DNA from: Prostheceraeus crozeri | Lineage: Eukaryota > Platyhelminthes > Polycladida > Euryleptidae | Direction of reading: 5' to 3' | Assembly (NCBI GenBank): GCA_907163375.1 | Contig: CAJQUW010000909.1 | Coordinates: 496,001-560,000 of the forward strand | Length of the DNA: 64,000 nt | Shown here: piece by piece, positions 15,522 through 64,000 of the stretch | How positions within the stretch are numbered: position 1 is the first letter of the stretch | How the letters are laid out: each line of letters starts with the position of its first letter | The notes under the pieces: model-generated | Databases searched by the model: none | What the model was told of the DNA's origin: nothing | Seen by the model: only the letters and a program-made list of their open reading frames with translations | Made by a program: the position numbers and the translations under genes

Positions 15522-16043
15522 CACAGAATTAGATTGTTTAATCGTATCACTTTGCTAGAAGTGCAAGCTGATTCAAACAAATGGCACATGCAGGAACTTA
15601 ATAAGTAGGCAAAAAGAAATTTTTAATACCTTATAGAGATAGGAAAAATAGTCGTGCGTCGCTTGCGGATTGCTCTGAATTCCTTCAAAATGCTCCAATC
15701 GCCACGAATCCGTCAGATTCGAAGAATTCAGATCATTGCGCAAAAGTTTTCTCGATATTGTTAGGTCCTCCGATCACTTTAAAGAAAGTTAGCAGGCGCA
15801 CGAAAAAACGTTCACAAACTTCTCTATAGAACTGGACATCGACTGTGTCTCTTTGCTGTGTGATCCGGTTGATAACAGTCACTTAAACCTCGCACAATTT
15901 GGCGTGTTTAATGTTGAACTGGCTGCTCATTGTTCGATTGCTATGGTATTTAGTCAGGAGATTGTGCCATTTCATTTACGTTACATGTTCCAATGTTTCC
16001 CTTCTGGTGAAACAGCAGAAGAGGCGACCTGTCTTATTCTGTG
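15522..16043 (+). mobile_element. hAT-type MITE family C, copy 2
   Basis: A 522-bp copy bounded by CACAGAATTAGA and its inverse TCTTATTCTGTG. It is flanked by GATGCCGT on the left and GATGCCGC on the right, a 7-of-8 match to an 8-bp target duplication, which points to hAT (or P-like) transposition. It lies about 450 bp downstream of the SLC46 stop codon. Confidence 0.8.
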
Positions 16044-16051
16044 GATGCCGC

Positions 16052-26498: not shown

Positions 26499-27015
26499 AG
26501 TACAAAGCTGACTGTCTTGATAAATACAAAGTAGAGGCATATTTTGCTTATAAAAAACGCCGAATATCTATGCTGCTGTTGTGTCACGGCGGAAGACAGT
26601 TACCAACAATTATATCTCCGAATGAAACTGATATCGGATGAACATAACAGCAAGTGACGACTTTCTGGCGTGCTAGTATCCAAAGTTGGACTAATTAGAA
26701 CCAAAACTCTATTTGGCAATCTTGATTCATCAAAACAAGGCTTCGTTTGTCGCATTCTCCTGTCTATTACACCGATGAGATTCCTATATTATTATAGCAG
26801 ACTTCTGTTCAATAATTACTCATTAATTTTCACTCCTCAGAGGGTCAAACATAAAATCATTTCCACAGTCAACCAAGTCAATTAGATCAAACTTCTTCAA
26901 GAGAAAAGCAACAACGCTGTTTATGTTTTTGAATTTCTCTTAAAATATATCAAAAATAGCAATCTGCTACCTCCTTGATTGAAAACAGTGGTCTTTAAAA
27001 GTATGACAAGTGAAA
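26499..27015. other. Spacer between hAT element and segmental duplication
   Basis: About 500 bp without recognisable features. Confidence 0.5.
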
Positions 27016-43930: not shown

Positions 43931-44244
43931 GAGACAGGACAAATTTCGCAAATTAAGCATATGCCAAATTCACATACAATTTGAAACTAACATTTGATAC
44001 GCGATTCTCATGTGTTTACAGAGATCTGGCATGTTTTTCATACGAAAGCATACTTACTTTCGTATGTGACTGGTATGTAGCGATACGAACCATTCTATCT
44101 GTGATTGGCTGTTTTATACTGAAATAAGAGTTGTTGGTATGTTTTATATACGAGGCCCGATGCAAATACCTAAGCCAGTAACTTCAGTCATACACACTCT
44201 TATGGATAGCGTGGTATTCATAGCAATTGATCTAGACTCGAATT

Positions 44245-44735
44245 ACTTTGAAATTACTGCCGCATGTCGTTGTTCCTACTTGTCTAATAACATTTTCAAG
44301 ACTTCACGAAATTTGTTGATAAGCATCATTATAATTCGACGATACCTTTCTAACTAACATGTTGACTTATATATCTCAAACATAACTATTTTTGCTTTCA
44401 TGAATTATAGTGTGTTTTTATTTCGGATTGATCATATGCCTGATTTCAAAATTGCATAATGCATAAACGTTGATGGTTATATGCTTATTGATTATTTATA
44501 AAATGCCTTTGACTTGCTTTTATTAAAATCGAATTCAGTATTGTAAGTTTAACTCTTAAATGTAATTATCTTACTACTACAAAACAGTAGTAAGTACTTA
44601 AAGCGATTAACCTTAAAGCGATTTTTATTGACAGAAGGCCGAAAAAATACGAAAATCATACAAATAGATGGAAAAATATATACCAAAAAATATCTTGGTA
44701 TGCATTCTTCGCATGTACTTGGTTTCAAGCGATTT
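44245..44735 (+). repeat. Dispersed repeat E2, copy 2
   Basis: Same-orientation homologue of 8360-9005, shorter by the missing AT expansion and a segment before the terminal TTTTGG-like part. No coding capacity. Confidence 0.6.
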
Positions 44736-45332
44736 ACAGTGTATCGTAGAGAAATATGTATTGCGTATATGCGAGGTTGCGTATACCCGGGAATTACTGT
44801 ACATAATGGAAGACACACATGTATGGAAGATGCAAAAAGGCATCCTCAAGAATATTCGCAATACTTCAAGTTGATTACCGTTAAGTTGATTATCGTCTAA
44901 TTACCGTTGTTCTTCCTACTTTTCACAGCTTGCGCCGCCTCTTGACTTGGCTTCGGTCAACGACTCAATCACTTGGCAGTCCTGTACATTCATAAAGAGT
45001 TAGCGTGGACCTTAGATTTGGAGGATGTATGTAAGGAGTTTATCTTCAAAGACAACCGGTCAAACATTTTTGGACCATAAGGGCGTTTGGGTAAGATTTC
45101 CCCCAAGGCACTGAAATACACAGCATTCATGACGGAATTAATGTTTTCTCTTTTGATACAGCATGCCTCCGCGTAAAGTGGGAAATTGCAGAGACAATAA
45201 AGGGTATTTATGTATATCAATGAACTATGAGCGGCTCTGCCTGATAAACAAGTCAATACTGGAAAGCAATTAGGCTACGTAAGATTTCATAATATATCAT
45301 GGATTGATTTTTAACGATATTTTATCTGAAAA

Positions 45333-45358
45333 TTTGTCGGACCCCCCTAGGAAAATTC
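45333..45358. mobile_element. hAT-like terminus remnant
   Basis: A C-rich stretch (GGACCCCCCTAGG) followed by GCGCCCCTG resembles the C-rich right end and TTTACGCCCCT(G) terminus of the hAT element at 22219-26490. It abuts a LINE fragment on its right. The opposite end was not found. Confidence 0.35.
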
Positions 45359-45389
45359 GCTACTGCGCCCCTGACGTCAACTAAAGGGA

Positions 45390-45850
45390 TATTTTGCCAA
45401 GCCGGAATTCATCAAGATTTATAAGACTTGTGTAAAGAGCATTTTAGAATATTCTTCACCATTATTCGTAGACCTCGAAGAATCAGAGGAACCACTGGTG
45501 ATAATTCAAAGACGATGACATTCAACGATATGCGAAACTAGAAACTGTGAATGTCCTAATTTTCTTCCACTCTCATATCGACGAAAAATTTTAGGCTTCA
45601 GACTATTTCTTCAGCTGATCAATGAAAAATTGCACCCATTGAATCATCTTCGACTGCCGGCTATGAGCAACTCAAAAAGGTTTCGTCTCCCGCAAATCCT
45701 CTCTGCACATCGTGAAAAGTCATTCATTATCTCAATGTCAAAACTCTACAATGATGGCTTCCAGCTCTGATACGCTATCCCTACATTAAAACTCATTTCA
45801 TTTGTTAAGATATTATGCTCTTACTTCAATTGATTCAATTCAATTCAAAG
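45390..45850 (+). pseudogene. 3' fragment of a CR1/L2-type LINE
   Basis: The plus-strand reading includes YKTCVKSILEYSSPLFVDLEE, IQRRAHSTICET (after a frame slip), the PLSYRRKILGFRLFLQLIN segment and KSFIISMSKLYND before a stop near 45770. This is the C-terminal region of CR1/L2-type ORF2. A (TTCAA)n-like tail near 45826-45850 marks its 3' end. Confidence 0.7.
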
Positions 45851-45882
45851 GTTCTTCAATTGAGGACTTATGTCGTTCTGTC

Positions 45883-45959
45883 GCTCGTCGATAGCTCAGT
45901 TGGTAGAGCGTTGGCCTAGAATGCTAGAGGTCGGTGGTTCAAATCCACCAAGACGCGCA
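45883..45959 (+). ncRNA. tRNA-like Pol III unit, copy 1
   Basis: A box TAGCTCAGTTGG, B box GGTTCAAATCC, T arm GGTGG/CCACC, D arm GCTC/GAGC, a 7-base anticodon loop CTAGAAT, and a TTTT terminator at 45964-45967. The acceptor stem pairs only if extended (GCTCGTC with GACGCGC), leaving unpaired GA/AA next to it, so it is not a canonical tRNA. The AGA anticodon would mean serine, but the long variable arm is missing. Most likely a tRNA-derived SINE head or a pseudo-tRNA. Confidence 0.6.
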
Positions 45960-46170
45960 GCTATTTTCCGTCTGTTAAAATTATCATTGCAGCTTTCTTT
46001 GAATACTTGTGTGGACTAAGTCCCCGTTTCAAAGTATAATGCTGGCTTTGAATTACTGATAACTTGCTTCAGTAGTTTGGCTTGACGGTTAATGCTATGT
46101 TGTCTTGGAGGATGAAGCTATCGGATTCTCCTACGCGGGTTCTTCAATTGAAGACTTATGTCGTTCTGTC

Positions 46171-46247
46171 GCTCGTCGATAGCTCAGTTGGTAGAGCGTT
46201 GGCCTAGAATGCCAGAGGTCGGTGGTTCAAATCCACCAAGACGCGCA
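46171..46247 (+). ncRNA. tRNA-like Pol III unit, copy 2
   Basis: Direct repeat of 45883-45959, 288 bp downstream, differing in the anticodon stem (GCCAG in place of GCTAG, which pairs better). A TTTT terminator follows at 46252-46255. Homology extends about 30 bases upstream and about 30 downstream of the tRNA-like part. Confidence 0.6.
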
Positions 46248-46279
46248 GCTATTTTCCGTCTGTTAAAATTCTCATTACT

Positions 46280-47200
46280 TTTGAAACACTTGCTTGCATT
46301 TTCCCACGATTGCTAATATTGTGAAATTTTTCATTCCAATATACGATAATTATTGTTATTTTAATAATACGGGCATTTGGTACACACAAAAATTGAAAAG
46401 TCGGACTCTTGGTACAAAATAGCAGTAACTCGACGAGTAACAACTGTACTAACAGAAATTAATGACGAGATTCCATTTTATGACCTTATTGTCATTCAAT
46501 TAACTCCCCTTTAACATATTCTTAGTTTACCTGCTTAAATCGATATCAAAACATTAGGAAAGTTGATTTTAAGTAAAACAATGATGTTTGCGTGTAGCAG
46601 GTCGGTATAACGAATTCCTTGAGTGACTTTCAGCCTTCTTAGTAGACACGTGCGAAAATATGGTGTTTTTGCAAGTCAACCACATTTAGTACAGCATCAT
46701 TTGTACTAGGAGGCGGCTTTACGATATTTTATGTCACCATAAAGCCTCAGATAGTTGATTTTGATGAAATTGATTAAATTCATGCAGCTAATCCTTTCCA
46801 TTTGTACATTCCTTCAAATTTATCCAAAGCTATCAGAAATAGACCTAAAATGAGTCAAAATTGCTGTACTTATAGAACCAAAAACAGCTGTGGAGATCTC
46901 AAACTTATCATTACTGCTGTGAAAAGTTTGTCATCAATCAGTTTTTGGGGTTCAACTATTAATATAATGACAGCTTTCATTTCGGAAATGGATTTATGTC
47001 GAGTTGTTCATATAGGCCAACCAGTCACGCGAGATCATGTGCGAAAGCAAAATATTCACATTTTGCGATCTTCCAACACATTGCACATCTACGAGCATGA
47101 TGCAAACAATGAATAAATGACTTTCATTTTTATACACCATCGTGGACATGTTCGAAATCATTTTTCATCTAATTACAAAAATTTTGTGATGGAATTTCTA
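46280..47200. other. Spacer
   Basis: About 0.9 kb without supported genes. A 104-codon plus-strand frame at 46802-47116 has no recognised motif and no splice or start context that convinces me. Confidence 0.45.
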
Positions 47201-47202
47201 CA

Positions 47203-47415
47203 CCCTGTGAGACCTGAGGGGGGGGTCCAGTGGACCCCCTTGGCCTATCTGGCATACTTCTACTGATTCAATTGAAATGAAATAACACATGCAGATTCAC
47301 TGTCAGAAATGATGATTTTGTATGGGCTTGAGTGGTTGATATATCGTCAGCGTAAAAAATGAAATAGAAAAATGTGGCTCCGGGGTCCACTGGACCCCCC
47401 CCAGGTCTCTGAGGG
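47203..47415. mobile_element. piggyBac-like MITE with GGGGTCCAGTGGACCCC palindromes
   Basis: The right end reads ...CCAGGTCTCTGAGGG followed by TTAA (47416-47419); the left end reads CCCTGTGAGACCTGAGG, a diverged inverted copy. Seventeen-bp palindromes at 47222-47238 (GGGGTCCAGTGGACCCC) and 47382-47398 (GGGGTCCACTGGACCCC) lie just inside. Ends beginning CCC with TTAA fit piggyBac, although the left TTAA is not preserved (TACA). No coding sequence. Confidence 0.55.
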
Positions 47416-47726
47416 TTAAGCCATTGTTAAACGATCTCTACGTCACTCTACAATAATAGTTCAATTCTTAGAATGAACTATTATGAACTTCTGGGAAGAC
47501 GACCATACAACAGCCTGCCTAAGTACGTAAGTAAGTAAGTAAATAAGCGTTTATTTCTCGTCAATGAAAATCTATACAGAGTGTTACAACTACATTCAAG
47601 TGAACTTCAAGTAATATGAAACAGTAAACATAAAAAATTTGCTGCAAAATCACACAATATGCGTACATGTACATTGAAAGATATGCTAACTATGTTTAAA
47701 AGAGCATTTTATATTATGCTGAATCA

Positions 47727-48886
47727 TTAAAAGGAAAAGGAACGAGCGAATTTTTCTGTTCGAACAATAGGATAGGAATAGTTATTTGAAAGAGCTAATT
47801 TACACGGCAAAAGATCGCTCAACAAATGCTCTGAGTCACTTTCAATTACACTGAACAAATTTTGTGACAATTTAATTCGCCTGCGTTCTAAAACAACATC
47901 ACATTTGTCACATTTTGATAGACCATTGTACATAATGCGATGGGCTCTCTTTTCAACTTTCACAAGCACATTGTTATCCTTTTTATTGAGGCCAACGAAG
48001 ACTGGGAAAGCATAGTCAAAAACTGATCGAATGATTGCCAAATATATGTCATGTAACTTTATAGTGGAAACAAGGGGCTTTAATCGGCGAAGAAGATGTA
48101 AGCGACGACTGGCCTTCATACGCAAGTAATTCACATGATTGTCCCATGTTAATGTGTCATTCAAAACAACACCTAGACATTTTGCCATAGAAACTCGATT
48201 TATAGAAAGTGGCTCATCAAAAAAAATGGGATTTCGGAAAACAAGCATGACATTAGACTTACTGGTATTCAACGTTAACGTATTTAATGAACACCATCGT
48301 GCAACGTTCAAAGTTTCATCTTCAATAGCGCTACGAATACAAGATGCATTACCGTTGGAAAATGGAACAACAATGCTGACATCATCGGCATATTTGACCA
48401 TAGTATTCTCGTCAGATATACAACACAGATATTTTATATACAGACAAAAAAATGAAAGGTCCCAACACTGAACCTTGTGGGACACCCGAGAAATATTGAC
48501 TGAACGAGAGAAGTGCCCATCTATTTTTACAACAACTTTTCTGTGCTCAAAATATGATCAAAGCCAAACAGCAAGTTCGATCGGAAAGTGCATATTCAAC
48601 ATCTTTTCAAATACAATATTGTGATCAACACAGTCAAATGCTCTTGTCAAGTCAAAATTCAGAATTGCACAACCAAATTTTTGCCGATCATCAAAAGCAC
48701 GTAGTAAAGCATCAACTAGCTTAATTAGAGCGGTGGTGGTGGAAGATCCTTTTCGGAAACCATGTTGCTCTCTTCCAAAATTTATGAAAAAAAATTCGGC
48801 ATAGCGGTTAAGAATAATTCGTTCCAGTAGTTTGGAGTCAACTGAAAAAGTTGAAATATATCGTAGTTTTTCTACATCAGGAGGCT
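47727..48886 (-). pseudogene. LINE ORF2, RT second half and C-terminal domain
   Basis: From the insertion point the reading is KPPDVEKLRYISTFSVDSKL, then ERIILNRYAEFF, GFRKGSSTTTALIKLVDALL, FDLTRAFDCVDH, a frameshift in the VPQGS region near 48480, then MVKYADDVSIV with the catalytic aspartates, LNTLTLNTSKSN, AKCLGVVLNDTLTWDNHVN and a C-terminal region with HRIMYNGLSKC. The stretch 48485-47727 is open for 252 codons. Confidence 0.85.
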
Positions 48887-49041
48887 TACACTCGACGACA
48901 AAAAGTTTGCCTCACACTACGTTTTATACTAAAAACATGTAATTATTAAAAACACTTTACTTTAGGGCTCAAATTTAATCCCATAACTTTCCTAATGATG
49001 ATTAATGATGCAAAACAAAAAGATAATTCACAAACATTTTA

Positions 49042-50060
49042 TTAATATTTGGTAGATCCACCTTTACTAGCAATAATTGCTTCAACTCGTGAACTCTTTG
49101 ACTCCACCAATTTTTTGCAAATCTCAGCAATTTCAGTGTCTCTTGCCCGCACATTTAGGAAAGCGTTGATACGTTCCTGCTTATTCTTGCATCCGTGACT
49201 CTTGAGACGCCGTTTGATGATTGCCCACAAGTTCTCTATTGGATTAGCATCCGGTGAACTGGGAGGCCATGACAAAACTCGAACATCCTTCGTGTTGAAA
49301 TGGGCCATGCTTCGCTTACTGGTATGACACGGCGCATTATCCTGTTGTAGCCAGCCATTTCCATCTGGAAAAGACTCCTCCATTTGGGGAACAATTCTGC
49401 GATCGATGATCTCATGCACATAAACTTCGGAATTCATATTCCTCTCCACAATATGGATACTACCGGGTCCGTGCCAGCTAAAGCAGCCCATACCATAGCA
49501 CTTGTGGGATGCTTCGTCGTTCGAATGAAATGGTCTGGGGTCAACTCATGACCGTCGACAACTCTTACATATTGAGGTGCGTCATCCCGTAGTTCAACAA
49601 CTGTTTCATCAGTAAATAAAACTTGTTTCCAGTCATCAGTTGTCCAATGTTGATGATCTCGAGCCCATTACAGTCGATGTTTGATTTGACTATTGTTCAG
49701 GTATGATCTTAGTCCTGGCTTCATTGCTTTGCAACCGATGGTATTGAGAGTGCGTTGCATTGTTCTTATACTACAGTCTCCTGAAGCACCAACTTGGTTT
49801 AATAGATCTGCAGCTGATGATCTTGGACTTGTGACACAAAATCGTTTGATTTGTCGTAACTGTCTTTCATCAAATGTCGTCGGTCGACCACAATTCTGGT
49901 ACAAAGTTTGATAATCCCCGGATTCTTGGTATCGTTGCCACGTTCTGCCGACCGTCTTGTGATCACAGTTTAATCGCCGTGCAATTTCTCGCATTGACAA
50001 TTCGCCATGTTCCATCCACGTAATTATTTGCAGGCGTTTATCGTCATGTGCTTGAGCCAT
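49042..50060 (-). pseudogene. Tc1/mariner transposase, family A copy 1 (DD34E)
   Basis: The N-terminal frame (50060-49668) has paired helix-turn-helix motifs (MREIARRLNCDHKTVGRTWQ). After a stop near 49671 the reading continues through DDWKQVLFTDETVVE (first catalytic Asp). After a frameshift near 49490 it passes into GWLQQDNAPCHTS (second Asp) and SPDANPIENLWAIIKRRL (Glu), with 34 residues between second Asp and Glu. It is inactive because of one stop and one frameshift. The 3' terminus is the outer left end of the composite. Confidence 0.85.
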
Positions 50061-50110
50061 ATTGCTTCGAAATCAATGCTGAAATCACCTTATCGTCTTG
50101 TTTATGTATA

Positions 50111-51280
50111 CTCAGTGACAAAAAGAATGAAACAAGTCCTGATATGAATACCTATGACTTAAACTTGGTTGTACTGTACGTTTGTTTGTTGTTTGTAAAA
50201 GGAGAACTCGAATGCTTTACTCAAAAACATTTAATTTGATACTCATGAATTTAACAACTTAAGTTAGAAACGGGTGTGACCACCGCGAGCATCCAAACAG
50301 GCATCGATTCGTGAGGGCATGGATGAGCACAGTCGCTGGATGAATGCCAGGTCTAAGAGGTTCCACTGCTCGATCAGTCTGTCGGCCAACATCTTCAAAG
50401 ACACTGGTGGGTGGTTGTACCTCTCCCTCACTCTGCGACCAAGTTCATCCCAGCAGTGCTCGATGGGGGAGAGGTCGGGAGAACGTGAGGGCCATTCCAA
50501 GGTTGGGATTCCACTGCTTGCTATCCTGTTCGAGACCACTGAAGCGGGATGGGGCCTTGCGTTGTCATCCTGAAAAATCAATTGATTCGATGTCACTGCT
50601 GGAACCACGACCGGTGTCACGATCTCGTTGACATATCGCTGTCCTGTCAATGTTCCTTTCACTACGATTGCTGGTGTTTTTCCATTGTACCAGATACCGG
50701 TCCAAACCATGACACTACCGCCGCCGTACCGGTCGTGTTCTTTGACGCAACATGGAGCAAATCGTTCACTTGGCAAGCGATGAACACGGATCCGACCATC
50801 GTTGAAATCGAGAGTAAACCTCGATTCATCAGTCCAGAGCACACGTTCCCACTGACTGTCACTCCACGACTGATGACCTTGACACCACGTCACTCGTCTC
50901 CTTCGATGTTCCAGGCTCAGCGGAATTCTCACAGCGGGTCGTCCAGACTGTATACCAGCTTCTCGCAATCTTCGATATGCAGTTCGAACGCTACAGGCAA
51001 CGTTCCCAGCAACCTTCCAGTACACAATTAGCTTCGGGACAGACACAAATCTGTTTCTTTTAGCAGCTAAAACTAAGCGTGCATCTGTCCGCTTGGATGA
51101 TACCCTTGGTCTTCCTGATCCGTTCTTCTTCTCCACATTTCCTTCTGCTTTCCAACGACACCACCACCTCCATACAACGACCCTTGAAATTTTCAATTCT
51201 TTCGCAACAGTTGTAGAACATTGCCCACAACGCATCATCCCAATTGCCATTCCTCTGGTAAAGTTATCGTTACAATAACT
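50111..51280 (-). mobile_element. Tc1 element, family B, nested; 5' end missing
   Basis: The transposase's 3' side ends at 50111 next to a TA, with terminus CTCAGTGACAAAAAGAATG, which resembles the family A terminus CACTCGACGACAAAAAG. No inverted counterpart is found upstream of the transposase; the sequence turns into an AT-only tract at about 51280. This copy therefore has an open transposase but apparently only one end. Confidence 0.65.
50264..51250 (-). CDS. Tc1/mariner transposase, family B, intact reading frame (DD34E)
   Basis: A 328-codon uninterrupted frame, close to the usual 340 residues of Tc1 transposases. It has the N-terminal helix-turn-helix (TTVAKELKISRVVVWRWWCR), a GRPR-like AT hook (GSGRPRVS), a second basic helix region, WTDESRFTL (first Asp), the glycine-rich GGGSVMVW box, FQDDNARPH (second Asp) and SPDLSPIEHCWDELGRR (Glu). 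Exactly 34 residues separate second Asp and Glu. Another in-frame segment precedes the Met (NDNFTRG), which resembles the family N-terminus, so the true start may lie slightly upstream. All catalytic residues are present. Confidence 0.9.
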   Translation of the reverse strand: MAIGMMRCGQCSTTVAKELKISRVVVWRWWCRWKAEGNVEKKNGSGRPRVSSKRTDARLVLAAKRNRFVSVPKLIVYWKVAGNVACSVRTAYRRLREAGIQSGRPAVRIPLSLEHRRRRVTWCQGHQSWSDSQWERVLWTDESRFTLDFNDGRIRVHRLPSERFAPCCVKEHDRYGGGSVMVWTGIWYNGKTPAIVVKGTLTGQRYVNEIVTPVVVPAVTSNQLIFQDDNARPHPASVVSNRIASSGIPTLEWPSRSPDLSPIEHCWDELGRRVRERYNHPPVSLKMLADRLIEQWNLLDLAFIQRLCSSMPSRIDACLDARGGHTRF

Positions 51281-51425
51281 TATTAGTTATTAGTTAAATT
51301 ATTATATTATATTAATTATTATATTATATTATTATATAATATAATTATATTATATAATATATTATATTAAATTAATTATTATATAATATAAATAATTATA
51401 TTAGTTAAATAGTTATAGTTAACAA
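51278..51425. repeat. AT-only palindromic tract
   Basis: About 145 bp made almost only of A and T in self-complementary ATTATATTATA-type strings. It lies where the 5' end of the family B Tc1 should be, and may be a repair or fragile-site scar. Confidence 0.7.
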
Positions 51426-51510
51426 TAACACAAAAGCAGATATCTATGAAAAAATCAATAATTTTGAACAGTTATGAAGATTGAATGAGCTATGGTAAAC
51501 CTGACATAAT

Positions 51511-52029
51511 CACAGAATTAGATTGTTTAATCGTATCACTTTGCTAGAAGTGCAAACTGATTCAAACAGATGGCACATGCAGGAACTTGTTAAGTTGGCA
51601 AAAAGAAATTTTTAATACCTTGCAGAGATAGGAAAAATAGTCGTGCGTCGCTTGCGGATTGCTCTGAATTCCTTCAAACTACTCCGATCGCCACGACTCC
51701 TTCAGATTCGGAGAATTCGGATCATTGCGCAAAAGTTTTCTCGATATGTTTGGCCCTCCGATCATTTTAAAAAAGTTAGCAGGCGCACGAAAAAACGTTC
51801 ACAAACTTCTCTGTAGAACTTGACATCGACTGTGTCTCTTTGCTGTGTGATTCGATTGATAACTTCACTGAAACTTCAGACAATTTGTCGTGTTTAATGT
51901 TGAGCTGGCTGCTCATTGTTCGATTGCTATGGTATTTAGTCAGCAGATTGTGCCATTTCATTAACGTTACATGTTCTAATGTTTCCCTTCTAGTCAAACG
52001 GAAGAAAAGACGACCTGTCTAATTCTGTG
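51511..52029 (+). mobile_element. hAT-type MITE family C, copy 3 (inside the Tc1 composite)
   Basis: A 519-bp copy bounded by CACAGAATTAGA and TCTAATTCTGTG, the best-preserved terminal repeats of the family. It is flanked by GACATAAT (51503-51510) and GACATACT (52030-52037), 7 of 8 matching. Confidence 0.85.
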
Positions 52030-52061
52030 GACATACTACACGATCAAGCATAGATATCGCA

Positions 52062-52556
52062 TATGTCTTCGAGTCATCAGATGGAAGTGGCTGGCTACAG
52101 CAGGATAATGCGCCGTGTCATACCAGTAAGCGAAGCATGGCCCATTTCAACACGAAGGGTGCTCGAGTTTTGTCATGGCCTCCCAGTTCACCGGATGCTA
52201 ATCCAATAGAGAACTTGTGGGCAATCATCAAACGGCGTCTCAAGAGTCACGGATGCAAGAATAAGCAGGAACTTATCAACGCTTTCCTAAATGTGCGGGC
52301 AAGAGACACTGAAATTGCTGAGATTTGCAAAAAATTGGTGGAGTCAAAGAGTTCACGAGTTGGAGCAATTATTGCTAGTAAAGGTGGATCTACCAAATAT
52401 TAATAAAATATTTGTGAATTATCTTTTTGTTTTGCATCATTAATCATCATTAGGAAAGTTATGGGATTAAATTTGAGCCCTAAAGTAAAGTGTTTTTAAT
52501 AATTACATGTTTTTAGTATAAAACGCAGTGTGGGGCAAACTTTTTGTCGTCGAGTG
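52062..52556 (+). pseudogene. Tc1 family A copy 2, 3' part only
   Basis: Plus-strand reading SDGSGWLQQDNAPCHTSKRS leads into VLSWPPSSPDANPIENLW and ends with SKGGSTKY at 52403, then the 3' UTR and terminus. It contains the second Asp and the Glu but lacks the DNA-binding domain and the first Asp. With copy 1 it makes the two arms of the composite. Confidence 0.85.
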
Positions 52557-52558
52557 TA

Positions 52559-53080
52559 GTTTTGGGAAGCGGGACAATAACTGCAGTCTTCCATCTGGAC
52601 GGGAATATCATCTCCTTCAAGGAAGAATTATAAATGGCAGCCAACGGCTTTGAAATGACATCTGCGAGAAGTTTATATAACCGAGTAGGAATATTGTCAA
52701 TGCCAGATGATTTATTGAGAGGCAGCTTTTTCAACATGTTGTATACCTCTTGACTTGTTACTTCATTGAATCAATTCTCATTTAAATTGCCACATGCATT
52801 TATCTTCATCATATCATCAATAGAAGAGAAGCATTGAGCAACTTTATCAGCAATAAGATCAAGAAGATTATCAACACTGCCTTTCTCTCTAATCAAATGA
52901 GAAAAGTCATTTATATTTTTCGGTTTAGTTTGCAAAAGGCAACAATTCCCAGAGTCCATTCGGAGAAGACATTACTTTACTTGCCCTGATCTCTTTAGCA
53001 CGAAGAATTTCTTTTTTCACCTTTTCTTTCAGCTCGTTATATCGTACCCAGTTCTTTGCACGAAAAGCAGCCTACCGCTC
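52559..53080 (-). pseudogene. LINE ORF2, start of the RT domain
   Basis: The reading contains LKKLPLNKSSGIDNIPTRLY, IYNSSLKEMIFPSRWKTAVI and ends VPLPKT at the insertion site. The pattern L-x-x-K-S-x-G-x-D-x-(I/L)-P is motif 0/1 of LINE reverse transcriptases. Stops at about 52770 and 52960 break the linker. Confidence 0.8.
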
Positions 53081-53110
53081 GTGAATAAGATTTTTTGTGA
53101 GTGGTGTCAT

Positions 53111-54004
53111 CTATTCTTTATCATTCTGAGTTATTGGAATGTATTTGAATGGAACAAACTTTTCGATCAAAATGTTCAAACAGTTGATGAAGGCATCCAA
53201 CTTTTGTTCAACACCATCTACACCTTGAGTAACACCACTCCAATCGATTTTACAAGCGTGGTAATACAAAGCATCAATATTCGATTGTCTAAAATCATAA
53301 AGTCTATGATATCGTACACAGTTGGATTGTACATGACTTTGATTCTTAGGAGTGCAGGTTAGCATCAAGTGATCGGACGTACCAAGAGGAGCATCATATT
53401 TTACACCAGTTTCATCATAAATCATGCACAAATCTTTAGATACAAGAATGGGATCAAGGATGGCATTTTTTCTTGTCGACTGAACAATGAGATCAATTAA
53501 ATCTAAATCAAAACACAATGCTTCAATATTGAAAGAATTCAAATCACCAACTACAATTTGATGAAAATGTGGCTTTCTTGTCAGAAAATCGTCGAAAATT
53601 TCCAATATACTGGTATGGATGCTAGAGAGTTCTTCGGAGCTTAAATTAGGAGGTATATACAAGCATAACAGTAGAATATGTAGAGAATTGAACTCTACAA
53701 TCAAATATTCTATGTCGCACCGGAGATTGTACATAGATGTAATATTCAAAAATGGCAAAATTGAATTTACATACACAGCGACTCCTCCATCTCTACGATG
53801 GCAGCGATCATTTCGAATACTCAAATATCCTGGGATATCAATAAGAGCTGAGTCAATCATATCACTTAACCATGTTTCTGTCACACAAATTAAATCAGGA
53901 GATTTCAGTGAAGCAGCAATTTTAAGCTCATCAATTTTCGGTAGCAATGAACGAGCATTTAAAAGAGTAATAGAGGGATAGCGGACACTTGGTAAAAACC
54001 TCAA
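53111..54004 (-). pseudogene. LINE ORF2, AP-type endonuclease domain
   Basis: A 297-codon open stretch with the APE-type motifs in order: LLNARSLLPKIDEL, DLICVTETWLSD (Glu), RRDGGVAVYVNS, VVGDLNSFN (Asp and Asn) and TSDHLMLTC (the C-terminal SDH). It nicks target DNA for target-primed reverse transcription in active relatives. The frame ends at NDKE, where a tryptophan codon seems to have become a stop, so the domain is separated from RT. Confidence 0.85.
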
Positions 54005-54095
54005 TGAAAATTTGAATTTATATTTCCATTTGTCTGCACTTGTACAATCCTTCCTCTCTTAATCACAACGTTTTCACTACGATCTCGTCTGCTTT

Positions 54096-54806
54096 TCAAA
54101 TCAAGACTGAGAGCCTTGCATTTCTCTCTTTCCATCTTTGTTTGGTCAGGATTAATGAAAATATTCGAAAATGATGTTGTATTTCGAAGCTTTCGAGCAT
54201 TTCGAAGAATGTTTCCACGTACATCATCATCAGCACATTTGAATCTGAGAAGACGAGGCTGAGCAGAAGTCGATGCTCGTCCAATACGATGACAAGCTGT
54301 AGCGTCAACTGAAAAATTCCAATAGCCTCACAGATTTTAGCGACGGACTCTTTATCACTTTCAATTCTTGATTCGGCAGAGCCTGATGTTATTTCAGCAA
54401 GACCTGATATAATCAGGAAGCTACGTCTCTTCAAGCGTTCTTGGAACTCATTGCACATATCCTCAATGGTGACAGGATTTGTATTTGCAATTTTGTTGTA
54501 CTCATTTTGCAGAATATCATATTTCTTCTGCAAATCTGTGTGTTTCTCAATCAGCAAGTTCAATTAATCTGATACTGGCTTCAGATGTTTCTGAAGATGA
54601 GTCTCGAATAATGATGATAAAGCATTGCTGTCAAGTGATTCTCTTGTTCTCGTTGGAGAAACCGATAGAGCTCTATTGTTTGTTTGACATTTCAAATGCA
54701 TTATAGCTTTGACCATATCTTTCTTAGTTATTTGTGTCTTCTTTAGAAGGTCAGACTCAGACATAGATATCATTTCATCCAAGGTCACCATTTTTAAAAA
54801 AGTCAA
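54096..54806 (-). pseudogene. LINE ORF1 (coiled coil and RNA-binding-like domain), broken
   Basis: The first frame (54806-54564) is MTFLKMVTLDEMISMSESDL and so on for 80 codons to a TAA; the same frame then continues at 54563 with a heptad-like coiled coil (IEKHTDLQKKYDILQNEYNK). It then has ERLKRRSFLIISGLAE and SDKESVAKICEAIGI, the arrangement of CR1/L2 ORF1 proteins with an RRM-like domain. Downstream of about 54300 the frame seems shifted. Confidence 0.65.
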
Positions 54807-54810
54807 AAAT

Positions 54811-54894
54811 GGTGCACGACGGATTCGAACTCAGTGTACAAAGCTTTACAGTCACACACGATACCGCCAAACCACTAGATCAGTTGAACGCTAG
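54811..54894 (-). promoter_or_regulatory. tRNA-like sequence just upstream of LINE ORF1
   Basis: On the minus strand, directly 5' of the ORF1 ATG, a B-box match GTTCGAATCC follows an A-box-like TAGTGGTTTGGCGG at tRNA-like spacing. The arms do not pair well, so it is not a functional tRNA. It could be an internal Pol III-type promoter in the LINE 5' UTR or an older tRNA-derived insertion. Confidence 0.4.
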
Positions 54895-54899
54895 TGAAA

Positions 54900-57800
54900 T
54901 CAAAGATGATGTAATTCCAGCAAATCGTAAAAGGTGTCGCGTGACGTAGCGAAGTTTTCGATTGAAAATTCCTAGTTGTGACAGTGCCAGAGGCAAGAAT
55001 GAAGACAACTCACGGCTGAATTACACGCTGCTGACGAAATAATCCAGAATTACGAATGATGTGAGCACTTTGGACGAAAACCAGTAGGACAGCGATAGAC
55101 ACGAGGACATGCAGATTCTGATGATATACTATTTGGAGAGATTTCGACGAATAACACCAAAATAAAGGCAAGAATCACTATGTTCGCTGAAAGTAACGAG
55201 AGCAACCGACCACCGCGCACGACCACCGCGCACGACCACCGCGCATGTTCCTAACATGGATCATATAAGTGACCTTAGTGATTTATCAATGTAACTTGCA
55301 CTTTTAAATCGCTAAATCCCTAAATCTTAACACAGGGATACCTATCCTATGGTTTTAGTGATTTAGGAGTTTTGCTGTGTAATTTAGTAAACTTATGTCT
55401 CTGTCAGCATACGACTTTTAACATTCATGTAACTTGTTGAACTAAATTCACGTTGATGATGGATGATAAAATCCGTGCATTTAGTCATTTAGTAGAGTTT
55501 TCACTTGTCTGCATTTGTGAAAACGTTTTTTCCTATCACGCCTCTCACTGATTTTCTTGTTCATTGTAAATCATATCAGCAGATCATTTAACGGTTCCAA
55601 TCTGACGAACAACATTCATATCAACATTACAAACTTTGTAGAATCCCAAACCTCTATATGACCCTGTATTTCACTTAGGTTTTATTTACTCTTTGGTCAT
55701 TGTCTACCTAGAGTCCCAAGATGCTTCACATTGTAAAAGTCATACTGATGAGATTTACAGTTCTATCACCATGATAATTACAGCAAACGTAGAAGTAAAC
55801 ACATGTGAGACATGACATTAATTACATCACTTATTTCTATCCATCATCATTACCTTATGTTTAACATGATACACTTAAATCTTTCATGTCACAAATTTTT
55901 TATCACTTTTGCTTTTTGTTTTAATACTTGGTTTGTGTTACTCAAAGCTTAATAAATTTAACCAACCATTCGTCATAACACATCCGACGAATCCTACCTT
56001 GTACAAAACATCGATATTAAAGCACAAAACTGACTAATGAATGATGTTTGCATATTCCTAGCTTGCATAACAAGAAACTTTCATGCGTTGACTATTATAT
56101 ATTTTCCTAATCAACTCATTACACACCTATTATTCAAATCACTGGAATGCATACAATATATTCAACTCTTCTATTGAACATGTATCAATCACATTTCAGT
56201 TGACTGCATCAAATGTAAAGTGTATAACATAATGAGTATGTAACTATCCCTTATCAACGATATCAAACTTGTCTTATCACCATGAAATTAAGTCCTACAT
56301 TCAAAGTCATTTTATAAGGCAAACATGTGCATGATGTGTTGCATGTATTCTACAGTAAAAGAGATCGTTAATTTGTGTTAAATAAAACCTTAAATCCCTA
56401 AATCCAACCGTAGACAACCGTACCCCTTAGATTATGTACTTTAACAATTTAGCTATATCATTCACAAATGGTTAAGTTAATAAATGTAATATACATTAAC
56501 GGTTAACATTAACTTGTGTTATATGAAACCCTAAATCCCTAAATCCAACCGTAGGTAACCCTACCCCTCGGATTATGGACTTTAGGAATGTATCCATGTC
56601 ATTGACGTGTTATAAACTTGTACGACAATCAAACTTCACTTTCACAAACTTGTGTCGCGGTAAAACTATTTGACAACACTAATGCTTACATTTCATGACA
56701 CTTGTGTTTCATTAAACATCATGATCAAACTTTCTAACTATACATCAACCTGTGTCGCAGTAAAATGGTTACTTGCGCGTACGAAACTGTGAGAGTACAC
56801 AGTGACGAATTGTCAACTTGAGAATCCTTTCAGTCGCCCACGATGATCCTTCCGGTGTGATAGCAATGAGTTGTGTAGGAATCAGCTAGGTGGGAGGTCT
56901 GAGATGACGATAAGTTCCTGCATCCTTGGACAGATGCGATAGAACATTCAGTGTGTTTATACGGGTGCCAGAGATAGCGTTATCATTCATCTTTGTGTTC
57001 TACTCTATCTACCGAGTGGAGCAGCGCCACAAAAGGGCGACAGAGTGCGCTCGTGATTCTTTGTGTGCACAGGAGCGTTATATGACATCTGTTTCACTGA
57101 TAGGTTTTATGATAAACATTTTTAGCTGCTTTTGAATGGCAGCGTGTTGAATATTGCAAGCATGGTTAAATGTCAATCCGTGTGTCATTTTCACATCGTC
57201 TGTATTCGCACAGAAAATCACTTGATGCAGGTTTCAATGTTGATTCTATTATCAACGCACGATTCGTTTAGGAATGAGACACGTATTCATTTGTCAAGTA
57301 CATGAAAAGCAAACTTTGATTGTAGCCTGTAATGCTCATGGACAGTCCTAATGTAATGTTCGCTGTTTCATACTCATGAAAAAATTCCACTGACGCATCA
57401 CTCAGTCTTGATCATCCAATGACATACCATGTTTTGCTGTTTCCTACTGATGAGCGTGTTCATTACACAGACGTGTTCATTTTGTGAGTTCAATGGTCGA
57501 GTCGTTGAACTGCATCTAAGACTTATGCGTTTCTACAGATTTCTAAACTTTAAACGCGACTGCAATCTATGAAAGTTTTATCATCATAAAGTTGTTGTCA
57601 TAAAGTTTTTTACACCACGGTTCATGTTTACGAATTTCATTTGAATGTCAGAAAGTTGAAGGTAGACTATATGTTCATCTGTCTATGATGAGTGTAAACG
57701 TTCTCGCTACACAGTTCTCCTTTATTTCCCGCATAATAGTTGTGACACTTCTGTGTTTCACTTAATCTAGCAGGTTGATTTTTATCTCACGAAAGTTTTG

Positions 57801-58265
57801 AATGTTTCCTAACTCATATGCATTCGACTTACAACGCTACCTGTTATGTGTATACTTCTATGCTGTCGATGTAGAGTGCAAACACGTTTAGCACTGTCTT
57901 TATTTACAAAACAGTCTACACACGCATTCAATTTGATAAAGGCAAACAACACATTTAGTAAATCTGGTACGCTAACGAGTGTGACTGCAGAAACATTTCA
58001 TAAAACTTTTTTCAACGTTCGCTAAGTTTCACAACAGCCTGTCAAAGACTTCTTACAAACCTTATTTCAACATTTGCGTTTAGACTTTTAAGCGAACATG
58101 TGCTTCACGTATTCTACACGACCGGTTAATGCATGTGATATAAATCCCTAAATCCAACCGTAGAGGAGCCTAGCCTTAGATTATGGACTTTAGAACCCAC
58201 GCGATTCAATGTCATGGAACTAGCTCTCACACACTCAACGTTTTGACAAGACTTTACCCGGTTTT
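54900..58265. other. Gene-poor zone with recurring CCCTAAATCC motifs
   Basis: No supported genes. A three-fold 12-bp tandem (CGCGCACGACCAC) lies at 55208-55246. The phrase AAATCCCTAAATCCAACCG with TAGATTATG(G/T)ACTTTA soon after occurs near 56390, 56530 and 58140, and a weaker form near 55305, showing a dispersed repeat several hundred bases long. Single satellite-like units occur near 56620-56770. Confidence 0.6.
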
Positions 58266-59500
58266 ATAAAACATTCAACACTCTAGTACTTACTATAAGA
58301 CCTTTTAAGACTGTGAAATAATCTACACAGTGCAGTAAAACTTTCTAGTGCTGTGGTGAACACTGTTTTCATATAACATTCTAAACTCTCAGTCTCACTG
58401 CAGTAGAACACTGCTTTTAGTAAGTAAACCTGATGAAGTATTCAGCAATCTAACAGTCATGAAGTTTGAACTTTCTAATAAGGGAACTTTTGGCAACTGT
58501 CTCCAATAAACTTTCTAGCACTGTGAAAGCAAGTTACAAGACAATCTACACTGTGCAGTAAAACCTTTTCGATTAAACTTTCTAGTGCTGTGATGAGTTA
58601 GGTCAGTCATACAACTTCGATGATCAAACTTTACTTTCTCAAACGTGTGTTGTGGTAAAAACTATTTGACTACACCAACGCTAACGTTTTATGACATTTG
58701 TGTTTCATAAAACGCCATGATCAAACTTTATAACTATACATCAACCTGTGTTGCAGTAAAACTATTTGACTACACTAACGCTTGCATTTCATGACACTTG
58801 TGTTTCGTAAAACTTTGATGATCAAACTTTACTTTCTCAAACGTGTGTTGTGGTAAAAACTATTTGACTACACCAACGCTAACGTTTTATGACATTTGTG
58901 TTTCATAAAACGCCATGATCAAACTTTCTAACTATACATCAACCTGTGTTGCAGTAAAACTATTTGACTACACTAACGCTTGCATTTCATGACACTTGTG
59001 TTTCGTAAAACTTTGATGATCAAACTTTACTTTCTCAAACGTGTGTTGTGGTAAAAACTATTTGACTACACCAACGTTAACGTTTTATGACCTTTGTGTT
59101 TCATAAAACGCCATGATCAAACTTTCTAACTATACATCAACCTGTGTTGCAGTAAAACTAATTGACTACACTAAACTTTGCTTTTGCAAACCATGATACA
59201 CTTTCTTTCTGACTAGACTTACGAATAAAACTTCAATGATCAAACTTTACTTTCACAAACGGGTGTCACGGTAAAACTATTTGACTACACTAACGCTTGC
59301 ATTTCATGACACTTGTGTTTCGTAAAACTTTGATGATCAAACTTTATTTTCGCAAACGTGCGTCGCAGTAAAACTATTTGACTACACTAGCGCTAACATT
59401 TTATGACATTTGTGTTTCATAAAACCCCATGATCAAACTTTCTAACTATACATCAACCTGTGTGGCAGTAAAACTTTTGTACAACATGATACACTTTCTG
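58266..59500. repeat. Satellite array, 198-bp dimer of about 99-bp monomers
   Basis: GATGATCAAACTTTACTTTC starts at 58619, 58817 and 59015, a 198-bp period; each period has two related halves that share ATGATCAAACTTT, (G/C)AGTAAAACTATTTGACTA, CACTAACGCT, TTTCATGACA and TTGTGTTTC. The array becomes more diverged to the left (58266-58600, with CTTTCTAGTGCTGTG) and right (to about 59500). Confidence 0.85.
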
Positions 59501-61260
59501 ACGACACTCACAAGAGCTTGTTCACTAGCGAAGAGAGAAATGAGCGTGTGGTTGCGTGTGGCGCATGAATGCCCTCCCATTTCATTCCATTCATCATTTA
59601 GCCTCCATGATAGAGACAAGCAGAACGCATGGCTTATTCTCGCATGGTTGGCCAACTATCGGGAGACAAGTGCAATGGAGATTTTATGAGGTAACCTGTG
59701 GCACATCGCTAAATGTCGCCCTGGCGGTCAGAGTACAACGTTGAGATGAAAGGCAACCACTTGGAAACATGACGCAGAGAGGTTTCACAAGGATTACCAT
59801 TGCCCACGTCCCGTGCAGTACTCATCGCTACGGACTTCACCGCCGTCTCGAAAGAACACCCACCAACAGGAAGTATGACACCGAAAATCTCCGTAACTTA
59901 CATCGTCAATGACTTGATAGCCAGATATGAAAACCGGTGGAGTTATTTACAAGAGGAAACATCCCAAGTCGTTGCTTTGTTCAGCTTGATAGCAAGCCGT
60001 GATTCACCAGCGTTTTGCAATGGAGATAATTAGATGCCACCCATGAAAAGATAGCTACGTCTCAACCGATTGGCGTTCAAAGTGCTACGTTGAGAACTGT
60101 GTCAAATGCCCAATATGAGTTGCCCAAGCGGTTTCGGTCTAAAATATGACACACTCCCTTGCCACACTTATCACTACGGCATCATCCGCCGTCCCGAAGG
60201 AACACCCTGTCGGTGGAATATTACAGCAAAACTCTCCGTGTCTTGCTCGCTTTCAGTGAAAAGCTGCTTGTATCATGGTAAGACATGAGAAAACTGGCTC
60301 GTACACAATTTGACGTGGAATTTACGATTTTTGTCGTTTCCCATTGCTAACTGTAAGATAATGAAATTTGTACAAGTTTTGAATCATGAAGTACAGTCAT
60401 ATTCCTGATAGCAGATATGAAAAAGCATTACACTTAGTGACGAATTATAGGTTTGAGTGTAGTAAGTGACACTCGATCCCGTCTACAGCCCGAAAGCCTT
60501 GTACCAATCACTAGGGAAGTGAGAGATCTTCCACGATACCCGCTTTTTGCAGCTGAAGACATCATTGTCACTGCCCCGAAGTGGTAACAGCAACACCGAG
60601 CCAAAGGTAGTGATCAGTAGTTGGGATCTAGCCACTCGAAACTTCCTTAGACTTAGTCAAATTTGAAATCTGATAGCAGATTTGAACTCAGCATACTTGA
60701 AAACCTCAGACCACATGTTAAAACATAGAAAAACTGAAAATTGAGAATTTTTAAACAATTCCGCATTGTGCTACTCATACTACTTTTAAAAAATTTTATC
60801 AGTAGTAAAGACACTATCAAACTCTATCACACAAACTTTGAAGTAAGAAGATAGCTTGCATACTTCAAAAGATAGAGTCATTTGAAACCCCGATATCGGG
60901 AGCTCTGAGCGACGACCGTCGCTTACCTCTTCTTTCGAAAAAGTGATCAGACTTACGTTGCAGGGTATTATATATGCAAAGTCGAAAACTTAAAATGGCT
61001 CTATCTCCAAAAGTATTCATCGTAGCGACATGCGGTTACTTGCAATCGATTTGTCTCACAATTCTATATCAGATGACACCTCATCCATTCTCATTTGACT
61101 ATGGGAAGTGGGTGACTCAACACATGGCCATGTAACATGCCACAAGTGAAAAAATCCTGAGTGTGGGACCTCAAGTGGGAAAATTTTTGAAAAATTTCAA
61201 AGTTCCGAATTTCAACCGGACTCCTATCCCAAAACATTTTTCATCACTTTTTTGCGAGGG
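59500..61260. other. Spacer with a degenerate direct duplication
   Basis: The stretch 59800-59960 resembles 60150-60300: both have ATC(G/A)CTACGG, CCGCCGTC(T/C)CGAA and then GAACACCC and AAA(A/C)TCTCCGT. No open frame is preserved across the copies, so I read it as non-coding or long dead. Confidence 0.45.
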
Positions 61261-61261
61261 G

Positions 61262-61706
61262 GCAGGGGGGCAGGGCGACGAAAACTTTTCTCTCCGAATT
61301 CGCTGGAAACATCCTTCCTAACCCAAACTTTCACGTAGATTCCGAATCTGGCCTCCGTTTTTCCATCCGAGGCCTCCTTCATGTCGAAAAACGACTTTTC
61401 TCATCCCAAAACATCCAACACCTGCCTTTTCCAACTCTGACGTTTTCCTGCCATTTTCCTCCCTAAACCCAGGAAAATAGGACCAAACTGAGCTTTCCAC
61501 TGAATTTTTCTCACTCTTAGCTTTCAAATGAGCTATTGCATGACTTTCTACGATCTCTAACACCAAAGTTGGAAGTTTGACAGGAGGGGGGGGGGGGAGG
61601 GCGACGAAAATTTTTCTCTCCGAATTCGCTGGAAACATCTTTCCTAACCCAAATTTTCACGTAGATTCCGAATCTGGCCTCCGTTTTCCCATCCGAGGCC
61701 TCCCAG
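61262..61706. repeat. Tandem duplication, period about 326 bp, with G-runs
   Basis: A G-rich run, then GGGCGACGAAAA, TCTCCGAATTCGCTGGAAAC and CACGTAGATTCCGAATCTGG, occurs at 61262-61378 and again at 61588-61706. The second copy has a run of ten or more G. Open frames here on the minus strand only reflect the duplication. Confidence 0.8.
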
Positions 61707-61709
61707 GCG

Positions 61710-62595
61710 GCAAAATGGACCTGGTATTGACCGTATTTCGACCATTTTGACCTTCTCAGCCGGTATTTAACCCTAAATGAACACAACGGACTAAAGTAGG
61801 CTAATTAGAGGTTAATATGTCAACCCGATTAACATGTTACAAACCTACTTTTAATATCACTGATGAAAACCGGTCAATGTAAGGATCTTTTTCAGACATG
61901 GTCTATACGCTTAGCCATCGACTTCAAAAGTTGATTTGTGAGACTATATCAGATAACATCATATCATTATGATTTTATAATATAAAATATGTTGCATTTA
62001 TGCCGAAGAAGAATATCAAATACTACAAATTTGATCACAACTTAGGATCTGCATCTTGAAAAGTATGTCAAGTTAACTTTCTTTACCTGAGAGAATAATG
62101 TGATGAATTAGTAACATCCACGTAGAACTTACAATATTGATATTAAAAAATAAATAATGTTGTCTACTCGCTTGGAACAATATTACTGAATTTAATTGGC
62201 TGAACTTATGTAGATCTCTGTAACCATGGAGTTGTGACCTACTTATGTAATTATCGTACACTTTTAAATGGTGATTTCGATGACACCATGAGACTTTCCA
62301 CGAGGATTTGATTCATAACTCTTTGTGATAACTATTTACTGATAAGAAACCATGAATATTGACTACTGGCCCATCATAAATTAAGAGTAGAATAATTATG
62401 CTATGTACTTAGGTGTTAATGTTTTAAATAACTACATCCAGACACGTTATTGATACGCTTTATATATATAATTATGGTCAGATATTAATTTACCGGTAGT
62501 TATTTTCGATGATAGTAGTGTTAGTGGAGCAACTGGTAGTTTCACCTTATGGAATATCTTGGCTTCAATCATAGATCTACTGTCGAATGCCGTTG

Positions 62596-62646
<51 letters not shown>

Positions 62647-64000
62647 TGTTTGCTTTGGTATCGAAGCGTTCATGTTAATATTCCGATAATTTGGAATGTA
62701 AATATAGTATATATATAACATTCAAATTTAATTCTCGCCAAGACCAATACGTCCATTACAGAATTAAATCCCTATAACTGTTATGAAATATTTTGTATAT
62801 TTGAGTTTTCTTGAATTTGGTAATTTGAATGTATTATTTGCGATAAAGACCTGGCATGGATATGTTTGTGAGGTTTAGTTGAACCGTCAGTATCCATACA
62901 TTTTAAGCGTACTATACACGGAAGACTTTTACAAGACCAGGCAGGGAGCGCAAGATAGCGCGCTGGAACAAAAACACTTGGATTTTGCACGAGGGCGCGC
63001 CGGGATTCCTTGTTATTGCCTATCGCTACAGTAGTCGTTCATTCCGGATCATCATCGTTTTTCTTTTATGTTTGATTTGTTAATTGAAATTGTTATGAAC
63101 TTGATAAAAAGTAATTAATTCTTAAATTCTTGTTTTACAATATTTTCAGGGATAAGATTTGTCCGCCGATAGGTGGTTTTCCGCCAGGGCCCCTTAACAG
63201 CATTCTCATCCCTCTATTTGGCATGATAAATCATAAAATATTCATTTGCCTTCCTCAAACGTCGACACCAGACTGCCTGATTGTCATCTTAACATAAGGA
63301 CACGCCGGATTGTGCGCCTGAAATTCAAGCAGGCTCGCACCGCGTGGTGGCTTCCCAGTATAAAATAAACCACTATATCACGGCGCGCCGATAAGTGTTC
63401 TATTCTTCGAAAATTTTGGAATTAATCTAGGTAATCATGTAAAGAATCAAGTCGAGCCAGATTGTCCCTTGTTACGAACCACATAACATAAAATGAACTA
63501 TTGAACCAGTTGCATAATTTCGGCTCTGAAGTTAGCAATAAGTATTTAAAAATCTTGAATATATAGACCTAGTTAAGATAACCGTAACATAGGCATAATT
63601 CGTTATCAGGGATAAACTGTCTTATTTATATATAAGTAGGCTTCTATTACTAGTATTGTCATAGCCTAATTTTTTCTTTTGTTATTTACTGTTAACATAT
63701 ATATTAGATCATAAGTATTGAATATCGACAGATAATAACTGCAAAATGATATTTTCGTCTTGTAGGTGTTCAGTTCACATTTTAAATAAATAGGCCTACA
63801 TCGAAACACGTTATTGACATGATGACTTGTTTGTACGGTTGTTGTTTAGCAAGTAGGCCTAATACGGTACTGGTTTTATGATGAAAATGGACTCAAGTTA
63901 TAGTCTATTAGAGCCTATTCAAATTATAGTCGAGCGGGGTAAAAAAACGGGACAAATTCGATAAACACTTAACGGTATATATCTCGGTGAATATAATTCC
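61710..64000. other. Right-end spacer
   Basis: No supported gene. An acceptor-like TTTACAATATTTTCAG ends at 63149 and is followed by a 50-codon open stretch to a TAA at 63294. I have no protein match or polyadenylation evidence for it, so I list it only as a possibility. Confidence 0.4.
62599..62642. repeat. (AT)n microsatellite
   Basis: About 44 bp of uninterrupted AT dinucleotides. Confidence 0.95.

Follow-up and report, generated by a model that had tools for sequence, protein, structure and literature searches.

The stretch of DNA considered here, referred to as the window, comprises 64,000 nucleotides of the polyclad flatworm Prostheceraeus crozeri (assembly GCA_907163375.1, contig CAJQUW010000909.1, positions 496,001 to 560,000). 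Within it, a long interspersed nuclear element (LINE) is interrupted by a 3.7-kb block whose two outer ends are both the 3′ end of one Tc1 transposon family, termed Tc1-A, in opposite orientation (Table 1). With the TA dinucleotides at their tips the two arms (48887-49367 and 52078-52558) are 481 nt long, inverted and 98% complementary; without them the element proper extends from 48889 to 52556 and each arm is 479 bp.

The block at 48887-52558

The nine mismatches between the arms are scattered along their length (offsets 26, 33, 149, 196, 286, 397, 400, 459 and 472), and identity drops at once past the inner ends, where 23 of the next 33 positions differ. The 107 transposase codons in the 3′ arm include the second Asp and the Glu of the DD34E signature, which are two of the three catalytic residues. 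When the block is excised in silico and one TA is kept, the LINE reading frame is rejoined (...VPLPKT-KPPDVEKLRYIS...), and the LINE stretch to the left of the element matches RVT_1 (reverse transcriptase, 7e-12). A preliminary description of this DNA had already recognised the opposed 3′ termini of a single family, the single TA around the whole with restoration of the LINE frame, and a second Tc1 and a possible miniature inverted-repeat transposable element (MITE) inside, all of which are borne out here. The arms are real, with divergence spread along them, although that description made them about 490 bp long with breakpoints at 49385 and 52062; the inner ends lie at 49367 and 52078, 16-18 bp less far in. 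Chance is excluded as the source of the arm pair because the same pair recurs at many loci.

Table 1. Parts of the Tc1-A block, in window coordinates (TIR, terminal inverted repeat).
Feature	Position	Strand	Remarks
Target-site duplication TA, left	48887-48888		One retained TA restores the LINE reading frame
3′ arm (TIR, 479 nt)	48889-49367	-	153 nt noncoding, stop codon, last 107 codons of the Tc1-A transposase
Tc1-A transposase gene	49042-50060	-	Broken in the window copy by an in-frame stop and a frame change
Nested Tc1-B	50109-51270	-	Intact 328-amino-acid open reading frame at 50264-51250; ~240 bp of the 5′ end gone
AT-rich low-complexity tract	51271-51416		Stands where the lost 5′ end of Tc1-B would be; length differs in contig C6250
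Tc1-A 5′ noncoding region resumes	51417-51510		Final 8 bases (51503-51510) are the left duplication of the MITE, GACATAAT
hAT-like MITE, 519 bp	51511-52029		Ends CACAGAATTAGA...TCTAATTCTGTG; 8-bp duplication GACATAAT / GACATACT
Rest of Tc1-A 5′ noncoding region	52030-52077		52030-52037 are the right duplication of the MITE
5′ arm (TIR, 479 nt)	52078-52556	+	Inverted copy of the 3′ end, in place of the short 5′ terminus of the sister elements
Target-site duplication TA, right	52557-52558		

Compared with another copy of the family (locus L010), the Tc1-A 5′ noncoding region of the window is interrupted twice, and L010 has neither interruption. The first is a 5′-truncated member of a short-TIR family, Tc1-B, which is large: a genome search gave 1623 candidates, of which the best 40 were scored, and 38 of the 39 other places listed align up to window position 51270 and one up to 51271. 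The place among them that was read (L059) holds a copy of ~1404 bp with 27-bp TIRs that is 85% identical, and relative to it the window Tc1-B has lost ~240 bp from its 5′ end, where it gives way to the AT-rich tract. The second interruption is the 519-bp MITE. Elements of the hAT-like class are recognised by an 8-bp target duplication and short TIRs starting with CA; the MITE has 12-bp inverted ends and an 8-bp duplication of the hAT type, with one mismatch in the window, and no transposase could be connected with it. In contig C6250, described below, its left duplication reads GACATACT, exactly as the right one does in the window. Further copies of the MITE lie in the window at 13934-14457 and 15521-16045, with ~86% and 92% identity to that of C6250.

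The simplest reading in the preliminary description was that a transposase had used the two outward-facing 3′ ends to move everything between them, Tc1-B and the MITE included. The ends are indeed structurally competent, TA flanks the whole, and a second contig, C6250, the only other one found with the same internal order, carries the block as well. However, C6250 shares the LINE flanks of the window and is collinear with it at 95-99% from 44067 to 64000 (~20 kb), so that there is no sign of the block having travelled as one piece; on this collinearity C6250 is the other haplotype or a local duplicate, and not an independent jump. Apart from C6250, Tc1-B and the MITE are found at these positions in no other Tc1-A copy examined, and the other contigs listed for Tc1-B (from the best 40 of 1623 candidates, C6250 not among them) have no overlap with the Tc1-A contigs found. 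Within these searches, movement of the whole composite is very unlikely. Tc1-B and the MITE most likely landed inside the Tc1-A copy where that copy sat; they would be later arrivals that, as the evidence stands, have not travelled with it. The two contigs also differ in other insertions. C6250 contains a 3.0-kb insert (L017 4631-7662) with ends CAAGGAC...GTCCTTG and a 7-bp duplication ACCTGAC that the window contig does not have, and a ~3.7-kb stretch of C6250 (~22871-26540) is unmatched at window 53491-53499.

The long-armed Tc1-A family

The left arm was searched against the 2.05-Gb genome (14165 contigs), with the best 40 of 161 candidates scored. At least 43 matches were obtained, many of them as facing pairs ~1.84 kb apart, and 30 contigs around arm matches, the window's contig included, were read. 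The arrangement of arm, body and facing arm is present in 22 of the 30, some of them with one arm trimmed or another insertion inside. Flanks are shared within three pairs of contigs (C735/C6250, C28/C9181 and C10558/C2176), each pair representing haplotypes or duplicates of one site, so that the 30 contigs reduce to 27 sites, 20 of them two-armed. Two contigs (C2433 and C8211) keep only 51-52 bp of the 5′ arm. The remaining contigs comprise one with extended arms (C13877), two palindromes (C4180 and C148), two copies truncated in the body (C2876 and C9181) and a single arm with part of the palindromes' centre (C6267). Five further copies were read at the 5′ side only and four have an arm there, in one case (C7484) only its inner 106 bp, at which point the contig ends; C8991 has no 5′-side arm within the 1.3 kb read. 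Six copies are exactly 1841 bp long with their TAs and most others are near that length. Among nine copies whose ends were inspected, seven have TA on both sides, one of these being C6250 at the window's own site, and the other two are truncated at one end. The normal form of the family is an element of ~1.84 kb with 479-bp TIRs that hold the distal third of the transposase gene.

The inner end of the 5′ arm is the same (arm position 479-481) in 21 of the 22 two-armed contigs, C7856 being deleted there, and in those 21 the same 5′ noncoding stretch follows; flanks are unrelated except in the three pairs. Two-armed copies that are dispersed and flanked by TA imply that DNA lying between a pair of outward-facing 3′ ends is in fact mobilised, and to this extent the preliminary description holds for the family, although not for the block with Tc1-B and the MITE as a unit. 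Dispersal to unrelated flanks would also be an indirect sign of transposition by the encoded protein. The same description offered, as its alternative, a normal insertion later rearranged in place by inverted duplication. In a tree of arms from which C6250 was left out, the two arms of the window copy are indeed neighbours. The recurrence of one inner junction and one noncoding stretch at many unrelated sites runs counter to this, however, and implies that the two-armed structure is older than the window insertion, making a rearrangement in place exceedingly improbable. Of the two observations by which the description would have its own reading refuted, one is made here, in that an independent composite was not found among the best 40 candidates scored in each search; the simple element, on the other hand, is itself two-armed. 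That the arm pairs might be assembly artefacts of inverted repeats could be entertained for an assembly of this many contigs in which one region can appear on separate contigs. We give this only a marginal chance, given that the same arm, body and junction occur in contigs with different flanks, that TA stands on both sides in seven of nine copies, and that arm substitutions are partly private to single copies.

Members of the Tc1 group (IS630-Tc1-mariner, DD34E) are characterised by helix-turn-helix (HTH) domains, a DDE_3 domain, the DD34E spacing and a TA target-site duplication, and Tc1-A has each of these. One intact open reading frame of 339 amino acids (C28, L011), the only one that long in 15 loci checked, matches HTH_Tnp_Tc3_2 (1e-10) and DDE_3 (1.3e-17); C7659 has a frame of 334 amino acids. 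D241 and E276, with 34 residues between them, are invariant in 14 aligned sequences, the catalytic triad being assigned from the invariant residues of this alignment. The closest solved transposase to the family profile is SB100X (chain 5cr4_A, 7.4e-49), and relatives in the protein collection reach 82% identity in the transposase. In viral contigs the family profile matched 23 stretches, and a relative is encoded by none of them.

Codons in the arms were examined with contigs of one site counted separately. Nonsynonymous to synonymous (N:S) changes number 84:20 in the 27 3′ arms and 81:19 in the 21 5′ arms, where all possible single changes give an expected N:S of 3.56; there are nine and seven stops, and four and six frameshifted rows, respectively. 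No purifying selection on arm codons was seen in these 27 3′ arms and 21 5′ arms.

Other transposons are nested in several Tc1-A copies. A mariner element with a 351-amino-acid frame (Transposase_1) lies in C10558 (L025 1921-3658), and the partner contig C2176 is without it. Another Tc1-like element, with the end CAGTCCGTTTCATAAAA, occurs in the Tc1-A copies of C5119 and C14036 (L033 2139-3762; C14036 corresponds to L046/L021), once in the body and once in the 5′ arm.

Sister elements and the origin of the 5′ arm

A search of the genome with the body of the element (best 40 of 85 candidates scored) returned, besides close copies, at least eight loci at 78-83% identity, four of which (L049, L050, L051 and L052) were read. 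The build is that of an ordinary Tc1 in three of them, and in L051 part of the 3′ region is additionally lost. Self-inverted ends found by BLAST measure 36 bp in L050, 26 bp in L051 and 24 bp in L052, and a short matching terminus was seen by eye in L049. The 5′ noncoding regions of the sisters and of the long-TIR family align up to TCATCA; the sisters then continue into their short terminus, and the long-TIR family into the inverted 3′ end, which begins with GATGGAA. At the junction ~2 bp (CA) are common to the two sources. A 5′ terminal stretch common to the four sisters (~75 bp in L050) is lacking in the long-TIR family. Comparison with the sisters, whose TIRs are short and whose 5′ terminus is another one, thus shows that in the long-TIR family an inverted copy of the 3′ end has taken the place of the original 5′ end, a change placed in the ancestor of the family.

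That the change ran from short to long we infer from the four sister loci, on the grounds that the arm contains part of the gene and that the sisters have a terminus in common. Long TIRs are on record in Bari2 and Bari3 of Drosophila (PMC8834629), and could conceivably be the ancestral state here as well, the sisters having lost theirs. This is very unlikely, because an arm that holds 107 transposase codons marks one of the two arms as a secondary copy of the gene end, and because the sisters have in common a 5′ terminal stretch that the long-TIR family lacks. We propose instead that a double-strand break, most likely an excision gap, would have been repaired with the wrong (3′) terminus as template. 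Both ends would then bear a terminus recognised by the transposase, and the product would still be mobile and could spread.

The arms of one copy are more alike than arms drawn from different copies. Within-copy difference is 1.10% (18 copies) as against 2.28% for shuffled pairings, with none of 50000 shuffles as low, and between-copy distances are alike whichever arms are compared (3′-3′, 2.31%; 5′-5′, 2.33%; 5′-3′, 2.35%). In the arm tree a copy's own two arms are neighbours in 15 of 19 copies, with support of 0.72-0.97. The tree left out C6250 and C2176, which are the same sites as C735 and C10558, and the shuffles were also run without C13877. Variants private to one copy occur in both of its arms in 38 cases and in one arm in 67 (19 copies); this run and that of raw distances omitted C6250 and C13877 and kept both C10558 and C2176. 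Arms with fewer than ~440 aligned bases were left out of the tree and private-variant runs. The likeness within copies means that the arms exchange sequence, or are made alike during transposition or repair.

Several derivative copies bear on the same process. In C13877 (L038 1001-2937) the inverted arms are extended to ~750 bp and include a further ~270 bp of the transposase gene; TA flanks this copy on both sides. Two palindromes (L018 1001-1961 and L019 1001-1780) consist of two facing 3′ arms around the same centre, each with TA on both sides and in unrelated flanks, and therefore the palindrome form most likely moved as a unit; among the best 40 of 106 candidates the centre was found in full at these two places and in part at a third (L035 6520-7001). 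The truncated copy in C9181 (L024 1001-1950) matches that of C28 (L011) on both sides. An arm and body positions 1-366 are followed by ~12 nt, by 88 bp of the left flank and then, across a single TA, by the right flank, an arrangement that resembles gap repair left incomplete after a switch to an empty chromosome (the homologue). Use of the wrong arm as template during repair would explain the likeness of the arms, the extended arm, the palindromes and C9181 together, and such repair probably still acts in the family.

We therefore take the block to be a copy of a two-3′-ended Tc1/DD34E family that arose by wrong-template repair, with the nested pieces added later, and put the probability of this at about 0.88. 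A number of observations weigh against it. By raw distance a copy's own partner is strictly the nearest arm in only 8 of 19 copies, and the 5′ arm of the window is nearer to the 3′ arm of C6250 (1.25%) than to its own partner (1.87%). Over the outer 159 columns in 13 copies, the 5′ arms differ less among themselves (0.94%) than the 3′ arms do (1.71%), and in one column of the alignment the majority base is not the same for 5′ and 3′ arms. The sister evidence comes from four of the eight listed loci, one of which (L051) is without part of its 3′ region. C6250 has no match to the left of window position 44067 and could accordingly represent a local duplication instead of the second haplotype. 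As 40 candidates were scored in each genome search, a composite elsewhere could be missed. Finally, gap repair on the wrong template is deduced from its products, and other kinds of template switch, or an exchange between copies, could lead to the same outcome. A stronger form of the proposal, in which a Tc1 lineage lost its 5′ terminus and gained a second 3′ end in one repair event, its 5′ arm now holds a spare copy of the distal catalytic codons, and the arms have since been kept alike by arm-to-arm conversion, gene end and terminus evolving within a copy as one sequence in which either may overwrite the other, has in our estimation an even chance of being correct.

Comparison with other long-armed transposons

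Sleeping Beauty, also of the Tc1/DD34E group, has long TIRs with internal direct repeats, and we know of no coding sequence in them. An internal direct repeat of this inverted repeat/direct repeat (IR/DR) type was not convincingly present in the Tc1-A arm: GACAAAAAG is matched at 8 of 9 positions at arm position 126, and the best 24-mer match was reached by 972 of 1000 shuffles. An IR/DR structure in the arm, being no better matched than in shuffled sequence, is not supported.

The closest parallel is Galileo, an element of the P-element superfamily in Drosophila mojavensis and D. willistoni, in which TIRs recruit internal sequence. According to a 2013 paper, its very long TIRs grow by taking in internal sequence, and it was proposed that one TIR is repaired on the other with a copied tract longer than the TIR (PMC3573991); a nearly complete copy is described in a second source as having 69 bp of the end of the reading frame within the TIRs (PMC4168063). 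Recruitment of this kind, in which an inverted copy of internal sequence lengthens the TIR, is seen in Tc1-A both in the 479-bp arm and in the ~750-bp arm of L038. Galileo differs in its superfamily and transposase, as Tc1-A matches the Tc1-type domains and Sleeping Beauty and not the P superfamily. In Tc1-A, moreover, a 479-bp TIR with 107 codons is the family norm, one copy has an intact reading frame, and short-TIR sisters are present in the same genome. Within Tc1 itself, the Bari family of Drosophila includes the short-TIR Bari1 together with the long-TIR Bari2 and Bari3, Bari2 with TIRs of 253 bp and Bari3 with long TIRs that are said to bracket the coding region (PMC8834629, PMC4120734). 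In Tc1-A, by comparison, the TIR runs into the gene, and the replaced 5′ end is recognisable in the sisters.

No Tc1 element with the end of its gene in the TIRs was found in titles and the beginnings of abstracts, a survey that lay mostly outside subscription papers and is not proof that none has been published. The present case adds a Tc1 family that, in its normal and dispersed form, carries a third of the transposase gene at both ends; short-TIR sisters occur in the same genome, and the junction can be read. How short-TIR transposons gain long TIRs has mostly been inferred from end products. A single genome here holds the short-TIR sisters, the long-TIR family with its readable junction, an arm that has grown further, palindromes and an apparent unfinished repair, and the idea of wrong-arm repair is therefore testable within one species.

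Elsewhere in the window, overlapping self-similar matches at 58607-59486 suggest a tandem array with units of ~200 bp.

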